DNA of 45,081 nucleotides from Treponema sp. (GCA_031256445.1 JAIRQN010000095.1:1-45081); one strand, 5' to 3'; counted from the stretch's first letter, positions 14,441-18,986 are shown. Made by a program: numbers and translations. Notes: generated from the sequence alone by a model not told the origin.

Positions 14441-15307
14441 TTAAGTTGTAGTTGTTTGGGCCAGACGCTGTTTAATTTCTTCGGGGGATAAACCTTGATC
14501 AAGAAGGCTTAAAAAATATTTGTGAGCTTCTTCGAGACCTAACTGGATACCTTGTTCGATACCTTCTTCCCGGGCGTCTTCTGCGCGAATCTCCGCTATC
14601 TCTTCTACGCTTATATCATCAAATAACATATTAATTACCTCCGATCCGTGTTCTTCCAGAAAATCCTTCAAAATACCATGCTCTATACAGTATCCTACAG
14701 CATTTCTTACAGATTCATCAAGTGATAAATTCCCTTTATACTCGTTTACCTTTCCTATGAAAAAACTGTAGCCGTTAAGGTTTTCGCTTCTTTTGAGCAT
14801 TTCCATGTTGCGTCCCTGATTAATATTGTAAATCTGTACTACGAGTTCCAATGGAAAGTTTTCGCTTCCTGTCAGCTTCAAGCCTTTAGTATCCTTGAAA
14901 GCGGAAGAAAGACTTAGTTCATAATGATCGGGACATTCCTCCTTACCGTTGTACAGGACAATAAACTCAGGCGTTGGAATTTTAATCAGTTTCCTGTGAT
15001 ATATGTCTCTGTTTTCGATGATCTTTTCGTACACTCTGGCGATGTACATTAGAACCCTAAGCGGAATATTTTGATTAATTGTCGCCTGATGCTCGATTAA
15101 TACGACAATTCTGTCATTGATTGTAAAAGACAGATCATTTATCTGTTTCATAAAAAGAGCTCCGGAAAGGGTATTGATATCGATGATTGCGTCCTTTGGA
15201 ACATCAATACCCTCGATAGCCGAATACAGTTCCCGCAAGATTTCAGGATTACTGAAAAGTTTTGAAAATACGCTGTCCTTGTGCCTGATGTTCGCGCTTA
15301 AATCCAT
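14441..15307 (-). CDS. Rpn/PD-(D/E)XK nuclease (transposase-like) family protein
   Basis: I recognise the family of recombination-promoting nucleases often labelled PD-(D/E)XK transposase, common in treponemes and often multicopy. The start HKDSVFSKLFSNPEILRELY and the core FTINDRIVVLIEHQAT are the hallmarks; D and ExQ would be the nuclease residues, followed by PLRVLMYIARVYEK. A basic/aromatic middle and an acidic coiled tail ending in LDQGLSPEEIKQRLAQ complete it. The frame is open from a TTG at 15367, but I choose the ATG at 15307 because GAGG lies 6 nt ahead, giving 288 residues. The product probably nicks DNA during recombination. No partner gene or inverted repeat marks it as an active transposon here. 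Confidence 0.85.
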   Translation of the reverse strand: MDLSANIRHKDSVFSKLFSNPEILRELYSAIEGIDVPKDAIIDINTLSGALFMKQINDLSFTINDRIVVLIEHQATINQNIPLRVLMYIARVYEKIIENRDIYHRKLIKIPTPEFIVLYNGKEECPDHYELSLSSAFKDTKGLKLTGSENFPLELVVQIYNINQGRNMEMLKRSENLNGYSFFIGKVNEYKGNLSLDESVRNAVGYCIEHGILKDFLEEHGSEVINMLFDDISVEEIAEIRAEDAREEGIEQGIQLGLEEAHKYFLSLLDQGLSPEEIKQRLAQTTTT

Positions 15308-15653
15308 AACATACCTCATGCGGTAATATCGCGGAGCGTCGAAAGACTCCCCGCGAAGAACATTCAAAGATGAAAGTTCTTCACCCTATATTGGGCGCGG
15401 CCGTACATACCGCTTTGGTCTGGAGAGGATTTTTTAGAAGAATTTTACCACGAACAGTTCCGAATAACACGAACCTAATGTTTGAAATCTCTTAACGAAT
15501 ATAGCATGACTCCATTACTACGCTACAGATGGTGTATTTACAGCGAGCCTCGCAGAGGCGAAGCTTCCAGTACCGTTGTCCACAGGGACGCTATGAAAAA
15601 GCGGTGCCTGACCGTTTGCATGTACCTTAAGTACAAAACGAATGAGTGAAGAA
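15308..15653. other. Gene-free stretch upstream of the Rpn gene
   Basis: About 345 bp separates the Rpn gene from the 71-residue gene. It contains the hairpin at 15330-15355, a short GCCTC-GCA-GAGGC stem near 15546-15558, and tandem CACGAAC words near 15450-15475 like decayed repeat sequence. A 65-codon open frame crosses 15518-15715 but has no Shine-Dalgarno and overlaps the better-supported neighbour. I see no convincing gene. Confidence 0.5.
15330..15355. other. 11-bp hairpin upstream of the Rpn start
   Basis: CGCGGAGCGTC and GACTCCCCGCG pair at 9 of 11 positions around a four-base loop (GAAA on plus, TTTC on minus), 22 bp upstream of the chosen ATG. In the Rpn transcript it would sit in the leader. 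It could affect translation or be a remnant of the element that brought the gene. Confidence 0.4.
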
Positions 15654-15869
15654 TTAGTCCGGCTCATTATTTGGCTTAATATCTCTTTTTTCTCTTTCAG
15701 CTTTCTTCCTTGCATTTGCTTTTTTTATTTTTTTATGAATGTCGCGATTTTTATGTTCATTTTTTCCATCATCGCGGAATTTCTGATATAAAAGTACATC
15801 ATTTATACGTTTTAAATCTTCAGGTGAAAAATAATCAGATGGTGCATTGGATTTTGATTTTTCAACCAT
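15654..15869 (-). CDS. Small charged protein of unknown function
   Basis: A 71-residue product, lysine-rich in its second half (HKKIKKANARKKAEREKR), with no membrane segment or signal. I do not recognise it. The start is the ATG at 15869, which has AAGGAG 8 nt upstream; an ATG at 15902 lacks a site. It overlaps the end of the cyclase-fold gene by 8 nt and is probably translated from the same message. Base composition is AT-rich like that gene and unlike the flanking housekeeping genes. A nucleic-acid-binding partner is conceivable from charge alone, but nothing in the sequence shows this. Confidence 0.6.
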   Translation of the reverse strand: MVEKSKSNAPSDYFSPEDLKRINDVLLYQKFRDDGKNEHKNRDIHKKIKKANARKKAEREKRDIKPNNEPD

Positions 15870-16676
15870 TTTTGTCTCCTTGATTAATCTCTTTTGTTTC
15901 ATTTAAATATTTATTTAATTCTGGTGATTCTGTTCTATGTTTATCATTACAATATTTGTTTTTATATTTTTTTAGTATAATATTGTAATTAGTTTTAAGC
16001 CATAAATATTTAGAATATATACTAATATCTTTTTTTATACTTCCTTCCATATCTATTATTATTTGCCTTAAAGCTTTAAAAAAAATTAGTATACTGTCTT
16101 TGTCACCAAAAATATAATTTAATCCATCAAAAAAGTTAATATAATAAAGACCGTCAAAATCAATTGAAATTAAATTCTCAATTGATTTTAAATGATCAGG
16201 CTTATCAGCCCTTTTTATAATATCTTTCTTTCCATTAATTAATGTATTTTTATCCAGAATTATTCGCGGATAAATTGCCAGATTTTTCTCCATCTCATAA
16301 GCCTTTACCAAAGCAGGTCCAAAAATAATATTTTCATCATGGTATAATTTATCACAAATAATTGCGCCCCTTAATAAAAAATTTCTTTGTAATGCTGTAG
16401 CATAAAAAAATATTAATTCTGATATAATATGAAATAAACATGCTTCTTCTGTTTTGGAATATGAAATAATTATTGAATCAGAATAATGATTTACTATTTT
16501 TGTTTCTTTTCCCTGTGAAGACGAATTCTTTATTTCCAATTCTTTTGTATCTTTTAAAAAATTAAAAATTTTATTGGTTTCTGTTTCTATTTCCTGTTCA
16601 TCTTTAAAGTTTTTTCAATTTTATTTTTAAAACCCAAAATATCAATAAATGCTAATAATCGTTCTTCATATATCAT
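15862..16676 (-). pseudogene. Frameshifted class III cyclase-fold protein
   Basis: Reading from the ATG at 16676 gives ERLLAFIDILGFKNKIEK, then the frame runs to a TAG at 16589-16587. One base over, the frame continues as FKDEQEIETETN into YSDSIIISYSKTEE, FLLRGAIICDKLYH and IIFGPALVKAYEME. A single extra A in the A6 run at 16610-16615 would join them into about 271 residues. FIDILGF and SDSIIIS are equivalent to the two metal-binding strands of class III nucleotide cyclases, so both metal Asp residues survive in the joined protein. A GGGAG site precedes the ATG, which overlaps the upstream gene's stop (ATGA). It is very AT-rich. It could be a true pseudogene, a slippage-expressed gene or a sequencing error. 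Product and substrate are unknown. Confidence 0.75.
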
Positions 16677-18580
16677 TCTTTTCTCCCTTGCAGTCTTGCC
16701 TCTACAATCTTGGGCTTATTGTATATTTCTCGGTATTGGTCTATCGGATAGACATTGAAATCAATTCGGACATTGATATGTTTATCACCATTAGGTGATG
16801 TATTGTAGTAACCGTCAGGCGTAATAACAACCCATTCCCCGTCATTAAAACCAATGAATTTTGCGATTTCTTTTAAAGTATTAATGTCCCATTTACGAAA
16901 AGTACCATCCCATGAACCGGAAAGAATTTGCCTGCCGTCCGGACTGAATGCAACTGAATAGACAAAACCTGTATGACCAGAGAAAGTCTTAATTTCCCAG
17001 CCTGCGGCGACATCCCATAATTTGATTGAATTATCACCAGAACCGGAAAGAATTTGCCTGCCGTCCGGGCTGAATGCAACTGAATTGACATAACTTGTAT
17101 GGCCTAATTGAGGAAAAACTTCTTTCTTTTCCAAATCTCCTGTCTCTATCCTCATATAGCCAGAGGCGCTCAAGTTCTGGGCTGGAATCCCGTTTACAGA
17201 CATTATCGCTATGTTTAGTATAGGGGTTAGTTCTTCTACTTTTAGATTAGAAAATTTCATTATTCCTTCAATGCCGTCCGGTAAAATTATCCGTGTATCT
17301 CCGGAAGAAAAAATTATTTTTTTTGTTTTTAAAGAAATACTGCTTGAACCTACGGTTTTGTTATTCTGATTGATTAATGCGACATTTACAACGAATTCAA
17401 AAGATCGTTTTCCGTTAAATACGACAGTACTCTTTGTTCGCGGTATAATATCCATTAATGGCCAGCCGGAGAATCCCCATGTATTTCGTCTGCCTGTTTT
17501 TTCCAGACCTTCCAGTAGCGCGTTAAGAGCGCCAAAGCCTGCTACAGATGGATCAAGTGCGATCCTCATTCCCAGATTCGCGGTTCTTCTTGCGTAATTG
17601 GTTTCTCCTATTTGAATCAGATTTGGATCGAATGTAATTTCAAATGGAGGATGTTCATTAAAAAAACGCGTTGTTTCCTTAAACGCGTCTATCCAGCGAT
17701 CCCGCGCCTGTAAATCGTTTAATATTTTTTGGCTGATTGTTCCGCTGCTTATGGTTGTTGATAAAGTATTAAGCCGTGATAATGCTTCAAGCTGGGAAGG
17801 GTCAAAAGTTATAGCCTGAGTAAAATTAAAAAGCGCTTCTATTTCAGAGCCTCCCGCCTGAGCCGTAATACCCCTTGCAAGACCTGTCTGCGCCAGTACT
17901 GTCGAGGTATTTCCTGTAAGCAGTTCCTGTTTTCCGGAATCTGTCAATTGAATTCCAATTTGTTCAAGAAGCTGCGCCGTTGCTTCATTTAACAGCATTC
18001 CCCTTCCTTCAAACTGCGAAAGGTTTCCGTCCTTCATAAAATTCGCTGTGCGGACTCCCGTGCTTGCTTCTGTAATGGCAAGCTGCAATGAGTACCTGTT
18101 TTCCGAAAGTTTTTGTATAGTGCCAAAAAGAAAATACTGCGCGTTTGTTAAATTCCCGATATTTATAAAATCGGTATCCGAGAATCTTCCGCTTGCAGAT
18201 AAATTTTGTTCAGTTATTATTTTATTCAGGTTTTGCCTGTCAATTAAACTGATAGCAGAAAATTTACCTATGTTATTATTCAGCAAACCTTGTATATAGA
18301 TTGGAAGATACCCAGGGACATCTCCCTGTATATCAGGAGCAAGAATGGCAAGCCTGATATTATTGCCTCCGTCCCCTGTATACATTGGACCGGATAAAAC
18401 GGATTCCAGTCTGCCAATAGCTCCGCGGGCTGTAATGCCCAATCCATCAGCGCCAAGTGTTGCTTTTCCGGGTGTACCAGATGATGAGCATGAAATCAGG
18501 AAAATAATGATAAAAAATAATATAACCTTTTCGCTGATAGTCTTTATGAACAGCTTTCTTATTGGTAAATATTTATTAAT
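16673..18580 (-). CDS. Lipoprotein with CsgG-like domain and C-terminal WD40 repeats
   Basis: The conventional frame starts at a TTG at 18442 (589 residues), but the reading frame extends 46 codons further. The extension adds a lipoprotein signal (VILFFIIIFLISC, Cys31) that begins at ATT 18580-18578, 6 nt after AAGGAG. An in-frame TAG at 18598-18596 rules out anything further upstream. The total is 635 residues. After the lipid anchor comes a CsgG/FlgO-like region (IRLAILAPDIQGDVPGYLP, LIDRQNLNKIITEQNLSASG, NAQYFLFGTI). An uncharacterised middle follows, then two WD40 repeats (VAFSPDGRQILSGS twice) and a tail WVVITPDGYYNTSPNGD...NVYPIDQYREIYNKP. Two blades cannot close a propeller alone. It probably sits in the periplasm or on the surface. 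It is the first gene of a three-gene unit, divergent from an HTH regulator. Confidence 0.8.
   Translation of the reverse strand: MNKYLPIRKLFIKTISEKVILFFIIIFLISCSSSGTPGKATLGADGLGITARGAIGRLESVLSGPMYTGDGGNNIRLAILAPDIQGDVPGYLPIYIQGLLNNNIGKFSAISLIDRQNLNKIITEQNLSASGRFSDTDFINIGNLTNAQYFLFGTIQKLSENRYSLQLAITEASTGVRTANFMKDGNLSQFEGRGMLLNEATAQLLEQIGIQLTDSGKQELLTGNTSTVLAQTGLARGITAQAGGSEIEALFNFTQAITFDPSQLEALSRLNTLSTTISSGTISQKILNDLQARDRWIDAFKETTRFFNEHPPFEITFDPNLIQIGETNYARRTANLGMRIALDPSVAGFGALNALLEGLEKTGRRNTWGFSGWPLMDIIPRTKSTVVFNGKRSFEFVVNVALINQNNKTVGSSSISLKTKKIIFSSGDTRIILPDGIEGIMKFSNLKVEELTPILNIAIMSVNGIPAQNLSASGYMRIETGDLEKKEVFPQLGHTSYVNSVAFSPDGRQILSGSGDNSIKLWDVAAGWEIKTFSGHTGFVYSVAFSPDGRQILSGSWDGTFRKWDINTLKEIAKFIGFNDGEWVVITPDGYYNTSPNGDKHINVRIDFNVYPIDQYREIYNKPKIVEARLQGRKE
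16914..17104 (-). repeat. Near-identical 126-bp tandem WD40 repeat units
   Basis: About 65 bp at 16914-16978 recurs at 17040-17104, exactly 126 bp apart and over 90% identical. The period equals one WD40 blade (42 codons). Such recent duplication allows blade number to change by recombination. Confidence 0.75.
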
Positions 18581-18586
18581 TTTAAT

Positions 18587-18592
18587 CTCCTT
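18587..18592 (-). promoter_or_regulatory. Shine-Dalgarno that fixes an ATT start
   Basis: AAGGAG on the minus strand is followed by ATTAAA and then ATT-AAT-AAA-TAT in the frame of the lipoprotein. No ATG, GTG or TTG occurs in this frame between the upstream TAG (18598-18596) and the TTG at 18442, by which point the signal peptide is over. An ATG-to-ATT change at 18578 would explain it. Confidence 0.6.
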
Positions 18593-18638
18593 TTTCTATA
18601 AAAAACTAAAAGACATAATTATGGTATTTTTTCCATAT

Positions 18639-18986
18639 ATGCGCGATTTTTCGAAACGTTTACGCTCTGAAATTGAATATATAGGGCTTACTCAAAAGGA
18701 ATTTGCTGAAAAAGCGGGTATAAAAAAAAGAGCTTTGGATGGTTATGTACGTTCACAGCAATCCATGCCTCCCGCCGATACCGCGGTCAAAATAGCCGCC
18801 GCTCTGGGGCTTTCGGTTGAGTACCTTGTAACTGGCAGTGAATACAGGCAATCCGTGGACATTTCCGGCTACCTGCAGTTCAGGGACTTGCTGGATGATT
18901 TAACGGTATTGCCTGATGAAACCCTTAACCCCATAAAAGCGGTCATCAGAGCCTTTGCTGAAAACGAGCGGAAAAAACAGGAGTAG
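18639..18986 (+). CDS. XRE-family helix-turn-helix regulator
   Basis: A 115-residue protein with an N-terminal Cro/CI-type HTH: RLRSEIEYIGLTQKEFAEKA, then GIKKRALDGYVRSQQSMPPA and AVKIAAALGLSVEYLVTG. The C-terminal 50 residues are acidic and helical, possibly a dimerisation segment. I start at the ATG at 18639; an in-frame ATG at 18621 adds six residues, and neither has a Shine-Dalgarno. It points away from the lipoprotein gene with 58 bp between starts, a usual arrangement for a regulator of the divergent operon. The proteins are of ordinary base composition compared with the AT-rich genes beside them. The operator is not identifiable. Confidence 0.85.
   Translation: MRDFSKRLRSEIEYIGLTQKEFAEKAGIKKRALDGYVRSQQSMPPADTAVKIAAALGLSVEYLVTGSEYRQSVDISGYLQFRDLLDDLTVLPDETLNPIKAVIRAFAENERKKQE

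Follow-up and report, generated by a model that had tools for sequence, protein, structure and literature searches.

A probably decaying XRE-controlled lipoprotein operon in Treponema and the cyclase-fold family of its broken passenger gene

Closest described systems and the Treponema locus

Autoregulated repressors of the XRE/Cro-C1 type with divergent operons are the closest described counterpart of the regulatory part of the locus analysed here. As in those systems, a small HTH_3 protein is accompanied by palindromes that overlap the divergent promoter, but here the regulator and its sites front unrelated, mostly surface genes across genomes. The second gene of the operon recalls class III nucleotidyl cyclases (Rv1625c), with which its family (FIDILGF) shares a predicted fold of ~160 residues and an invariant pair of Asp in the metal-binding positions. 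The family differs from these cyclases in having no PF00211 match, in its invariant residues and, by motif alignment, in the base-selecting Lys/Asp and transition-state Asn/Arg, which appear not to be conserved.

Two other groups invite comparison. PycC of the Pycsar systems is reported to combine a class III fold with a pair of metal Asp (PMC11224242). FIDILGF proteins have the same fold and Asp pair, and some lie in defence neighbourhoods, but the family is nearly unmatched by PycC models and no adjacent PycTIR or PycTM was recognised. DUF2652 proteins retain K/E-type substrate-specifying residues and mostly retain the Arg (PMC4886424). Like them, FIDILGF proteins are mostly single-domain, ~250 aa and cytosolic, with a class III cyclase fold predicted by computation; unlike them, they do not match the DUF2652 Pfam model at E <= 0.01. 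For the lipoprotein class found here, literature searches returned no paper.

The locus lies in a 45,081-nucleotide stretch of Treponema DNA (the window), part of contig C61 of a 2.79 Mb genome (G000). So, what kind of locus is it? With a probability of roughly two in three, we read it as a surface-lipoprotein operon under XRE control that is decaying and that carries a broken passenger gene, acquired by transfer, with a class III nucleotide-cyclase fold (Table 1). The window locus itself would then be only a decaying operon, and the greatest interest lies in the cyclase-like family.

Table 1. Coordinates of the features of the Treponema locus, counted from the first nucleotide of the window
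Feature	Position	Strand	Basis or remark
Rpn-like PD-(D/E)XK protein	14441..15367	-	weak family matches
Small charged protein, 71 aa from ATG 15869 (82 aa from 15902)	15654..15869	-	homologues in G009 and G037
Cyclase-fold (FIDILGF) gene, frameshifted	15862..16676	-	two frames; lesion near A6 run 16610-16615
Lipoprotein, 635 aa if read from ATT 18580	16673..18580	-	signal, lipobox, CsgG, WD40
Collapsed divergent promoter region	18581..18638		alignment with relatives
Single remaining palindrome ACATAATTATGT (GACATAATTATGGT in the window)	18611..18624		27 bp before XRE start
XRE-type (Cro/C1-like) regulator, 115 aa	18639..18986	+	HTH_3 5.9e-11

The first-pass annotation described three overlapping minus-strand genes with a divergent XRE regulator, and this gene order, the strands and the overlaps are borne out. 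The lipoprotein gene, with its stop codon at 16673-16675, shares 4 nt with the cyclase-fold gene, which starts at 16676, and the 8-nt overlap of the cyclase-fold and small genes is real if the small gene starts at ATG 15869, which is consistent with its homologues. The marked AT-richness of two genes holds as well: GC is 22.9% in the cyclase-fold gene and 29.3% in the small gene, against 39.9% in the lipoprotein gene, 43.4% in the XRE gene and 45.0% in the window overall. Pfam likewise agrees with the domain calls for the lipoprotein (CsgG and WD40) and the XRE protein (HTH_3). A gene does adjoin the cassette where an Rpn nuclease had been proposed, but its assignment as a nuclease is weak (Transposase_31 barely above its cut-off, PDDEXK_2 and TIGR01784 below theirs), and it is probably not part of the cassette.

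Regulator, putative operators and state of the operon

The regulator belongs to a recurrent type. Among 40 same-genus genomes, 14 (that of the window is one of them) carry one or two close relatives at ~68-85% identity, 15 copies in all, and relatives occur in 27 of 200 genomes of the taxonomic family (E <= 1e-30), with somewhat lower identity in its other genera. A second in-frame ATG lies upstream of the window's XRE start, at 18624, and the NCBIfam RstR match of the protein is under the cut-off. What stands divergent from these regulators varies: some face CsgG-WD40 or CsgG-TPR lipoproteins, some a CsgG-like protein with very large proteins behind it that look secreted, and some other genes again, with most of this cargo being surface or lipoprotein genes. 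The intergenic region is kept despite these changes. It contains up to three copies of the palindrome ACATAATTATGT around a sigma-70 promoter, placed near -25, -56 and -84 relative to the XRE start. The exact 11-mer ACATAATTATG was found in 32 of 189 loci examined, all 32 of which are XRE loci of the same kind.

The layout in relatives is instructive. In G037, a TTGAAA-17-TATAAT promoter (11/12 matches) is directed towards the lipoprotein, with the middle palindrome within its spacer and another immediately 3' of the -10; the promoter scan scores 11/12 at locus L098. This divergent-promoter anatomy fits repression by the XRE protein. In intact members the protein would most likely bind two or three of the palindromes, with one putative site in the -35/-10 spacer, one just past the divergent -10 and one beside its own start. 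Binding would then repress the variable operon, composed mostly of surface lipoprotein genes and small accessory genes. The XRE module offers a clear, testable candidate operator for variable surface-protein operons in these spirochaetes. In two genomes (G022 and G006; loci L089 and L100), the XRE module lies between the same two flanks but the operon content differs, which may reflect exchange of the cargo at one fixed position.

The lipoprotein of the window has a signal and lipobox (FLIS-C), an N-terminal CsgG-like part (24.6 bits, cut-off 20.8) and WD40 repeats near the C terminus (2.4e-24). Relatives at 55-72% identity occur in nine other same-genus genomes (G003, G004, G009, G012, G015, G021, G022, G033 and G038). 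The small protein is found in three of the 40 same-genus genomes (the window's, G009 and G037), each time within an XRE operon.

The window copy of this arrangement is damaged. It has the XRE gene, the divergent operon and one site; two sites and the promoter are lost. Aligned with G028, G029, G036 and G037, the window is missing ~60 bp between the outer palindromes, the TTGAAA-17-TATAAT promoter included, and a scan of this stretch in the window found no promoter-like site. Recombination between the outer palindromic repeats apparently removed this segment together with the promoter. There is also no ATG, GTG or TTG start 5' of the lipobox in the lipoprotein gene. At the expected start, where relatives have ATG or GTG, stands an ATT (18580-18578), preceded by an RBS-like GGAG and a 6-nt gap. 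ATT can serve as a rare start codon.

The third lesion is in the cyclase-fold gene, whose N-terminal part (MIYEERLLAFIDILGFKNKIEK...) and remainder (from NFKDEQEIE...) are in different frames. Because of this frameshift near the A6 run, the listed 225-aa ORF lacks the FIDILGF motif; the family profile (A4) matches the second part of the gene with E 1.6e-54. If the frameshift were an artefact of sequencing or assembly, or were bypassed by slippage at the A6 run, the gene would be functional in the window, and the adjoining A6 run and the long, open remainder with coding-like constraint are what such an explanation would predict. We nonetheless regard it as quite improbable, given that the same operon shows promoter loss and an ATT start, that the related cyclase-like copy of G015 is broken at a different place, and that in 78 of 80 relatives from elsewhere most of the domain looks open. 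Programmed -1 frameshifting was set aside, since the A6 run, read in the upstream frame, does not form a standard slippery heptamer and the operon has lost its promoter as well.

Taken together, promoter loss, the ATT start and the frameshifted second gene suggest that the decaying operon is probably silent or barely expressed, as judged from its sequence. Transcription could still come from read-through or from a promoter that departs from the consensus used in the scan. Comparisons between relatives show an excess of third-codon-position differences in the lipoprotein, XRE and cyclase-fold genes (0.34/0.22/0.58 in the last), which is weak in the small gene. This excess suggests that the lesions, and so the damage to the operon, are probably recent.

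The cyclase-fold family and its spread

The first-pass annotation proposed a cyclase fold and structure prediction as its check; the prediction agrees. The AlphaFold model of an intact Treponema relative (pLDDT 84, pTM 0.84) gives a Foldseek E of 6e-5, and among the matches listed the solved structures are class III nucleotide cyclases. Against the Rv1625c catalytic domain (PDB 7yz9), VIA gives Z 12.8 and an rmsd of 3.2 A over 159 residues. In a structural comparison with viral proteins, one match reached E <= 0.001, a giant-virus response regulator.

For the window protein, no Pfam or PADLOC model matches, the sole NCBIfam match is far under its cut-off and the PADLOC PycC models give no match at E 5. 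No Pfam family covers the 62 relatives compared, none of which matches PF00211 at E <= 0.01. Two PycC models each match one of the 62, at E ~0.015, and the others match none at 0.1.

Invariant positions across 92 aligned sequences are F10, D12, G15, D67, R103, E130 and P137; nearly invariant are S66, R138, D175, K223 and W226. By window numbering, D12 and D67 occupy the metal-binding Asp positions, an equivalence drawn from motif position, not residue-level superposition. Mapped likewise by motif only, no base-selecting Lys is conserved before the SDS hairpin, and the transition-state positions on the helix have Asn in 15% of sequences and no conserved Arg. The family may therefore have kept the fold as a binding or regulatory protein without catalysis, which the apparent loss, by motif alignment, of the usual Lys/Asp and Asn/Arg positions would accommodate. 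We consider this unlikely, as the invariant metal Asp together with R103, E130, P137, R138, D175 and K223 go beyond the needs of a mere scaffold. Retention of both metal Asp and of new invariant residues suggests instead that the intact relatives probably act on a nucleotide, a view held with low to moderate confidence and based on the model and alignment. With similar caution, they may be non-canonical cyclases or nucleotidyltransferases of mobile and defence islands. A catalytic-looking cyclase fold with altered active-site positions and no Pfam model makes the chemistry of this family directly testable. In two loci (L152 and L014), ~280-300 extra N-terminal residues are fused to the cyclase-fold domain.

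The family is widespread, with hits across bacterial phyla and in one archaeal MAG. A single-protein scan of genome contigs gave no confirmed relative, nor did a 13-member alignment offer a conserved stretch usable for searching; a four-member alignment (A3) served as query for one-per-species genomes. This search gave 199 confirmed places, and of 80 loci taken from them 78 are open over most of the domain. Relatives also occur on 57 plasmid records, in ten viral contigs and in 16 of 296 genomes of the phylum; phage records encode none. Broken copies are also present on some Acinetobacter plasmids.

Within the genus, only two of 40 genomes (the window's and G015) have the cyclase-like gene. 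Their copies form one clade (0.995) near Firmicutes sequences, which joins one Paenibacillus copy at 0.88, with weak support beyond. For G066, the copy groups within a mainly Bacteroidota clade (0.999); that of G183 lies elsewhere. Together with the low GC of the gene (23% in the window, 25% in G015), tree placement favours separate acquisitions. The earlier suggestion that the AT-rich gene was transferred horizontally is supported by its rarity in the genus, the separate clades and the composition.

Partners of the cyclase-fold gene

Do the lipoprotein, the cyclase-fold protein and the small protein form one envelope-sensing unit, as first proposed? In its full form this would be a dedicated system with the lipoprotein as sensor, the cyclase-like protein as source of a nucleotide signal and the small protein as partner or receptor. 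The gene overlaps suggest translational coupling, G015 has the XRE gene, a lipoprotein relative and the cyclase-like gene together, and in G066 an intact cyclase-like gene lies 190 bp 3' of a CsgG-TPR lipoprotein. Homologues of the genes were not found together elsewhere, however: a neighbourhood search (up to four genes) around 79 homologues in other organisms, outside Treponemataceae, found no lipoprotein, XRE or small-protein relative. Conversely, the lipoprotein, XRE and small genes mostly occur without the cyclase-like gene, which is absent from eight of the nine other lipoprotein-bearing genomes (G015 is the ninth) and from both other genomes with the small protein, G009 and G037, whose operons lack it. 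The G015 case is itself equivocal, as the order there is XRE, a truncated lipoprotein, an intervening FkbM methyltransferase gene, a frameshifted cyclase-like gene and more lipoprotein-like genes. In the window, the absent promoter, abnormal start codon and broken cyclase-like gene weaken the proposal further, and we find it very improbable; a decaying lipoprotein operon with a broken passenger describes the locus better.

A looser link is possible. A CsgG-like lipoprotein is close to the FIDILGF gene in three of the four taxonomic-family genomes with one (G000, G015 and G066), although the window genome alone has ~20 CsgG-like genes. In the G015 cassette, the FkbM methyltransferase gene (L024:7136-7903) is AT-rich (30% GC) and lies at the place of the absent C-terminal part of the lipoprotein.

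A role in defence had also been floated. Some association with defence genes holds for the protein family, but not for the window locus. PADLOC defence genes adjoin the FIDILGF gene in eight loci: type I restriction genes in L109, L120 and L150, type IIG enzymes in L160 and L180, PDC-S06 in L173 and BREX genes (PglX/BrxC/PglZ) in L111 and L166. In L166, the FIDILGF gene lies between PglX and PglZ of the BREX operon. Judged by eye, defence genes are also in or near L112, L119 and L207. Several copies thus lie inside or beside restriction-modification, BREX or other defence genes. Most FIDILGF neighbourhoods have no known defence gene, and the link is suggestive only.

Could the family act against phages by producing or consuming a nucleotide signal, in principle as Pycsar does? 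The class III fold with both metal Asp, the restriction, BREX, type IIG and PDC-S06 neighbours and the presence on plasmids and some viral contigs make this possible. The odds nevertheless lean against it, since key cyclase residues appear not to be conserved, the PycC models match a single member and no constant effector partner is apparent in an overall survey of the neighbours of 79 loci.

A ParA/MinD-like ATPase gene lies immediately upstream of the cyclase-fold gene, abutting or overlapping its start, in L116, L129, L137, L167 and L177. These are five unrelated genomes from different phyla, which suggests that the two genes form a fixed operon in some members of the family. A broader and more tentative picture, rather doubtful as a whole, is of unrecognised, widespread class III-fold enzymes with non-canonical chemistry, carried on plasmids and defence islands and paired in part with ParA/MinD, that would make or remove a nucleotide signal in phage or plasmid conflict.

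Some placements are of note in individual genomes. The cyclase-fold gene lies within or adjoining BREX operons in L166:2462-9389 and L111:266-7167, and a PF00211 nucleotide cyclase gene (L186:6889-7836) lies 30 bp after a cyclase-fold gene. In Lachnospiraceae-type genomes (L131, L135 and L117), Rpn-like or PDDEXK_2 nuclease genes are immediately 5' of the cyclase-fold gene, an arrangement that the Rpn-like gene beside the window cassette parallels.
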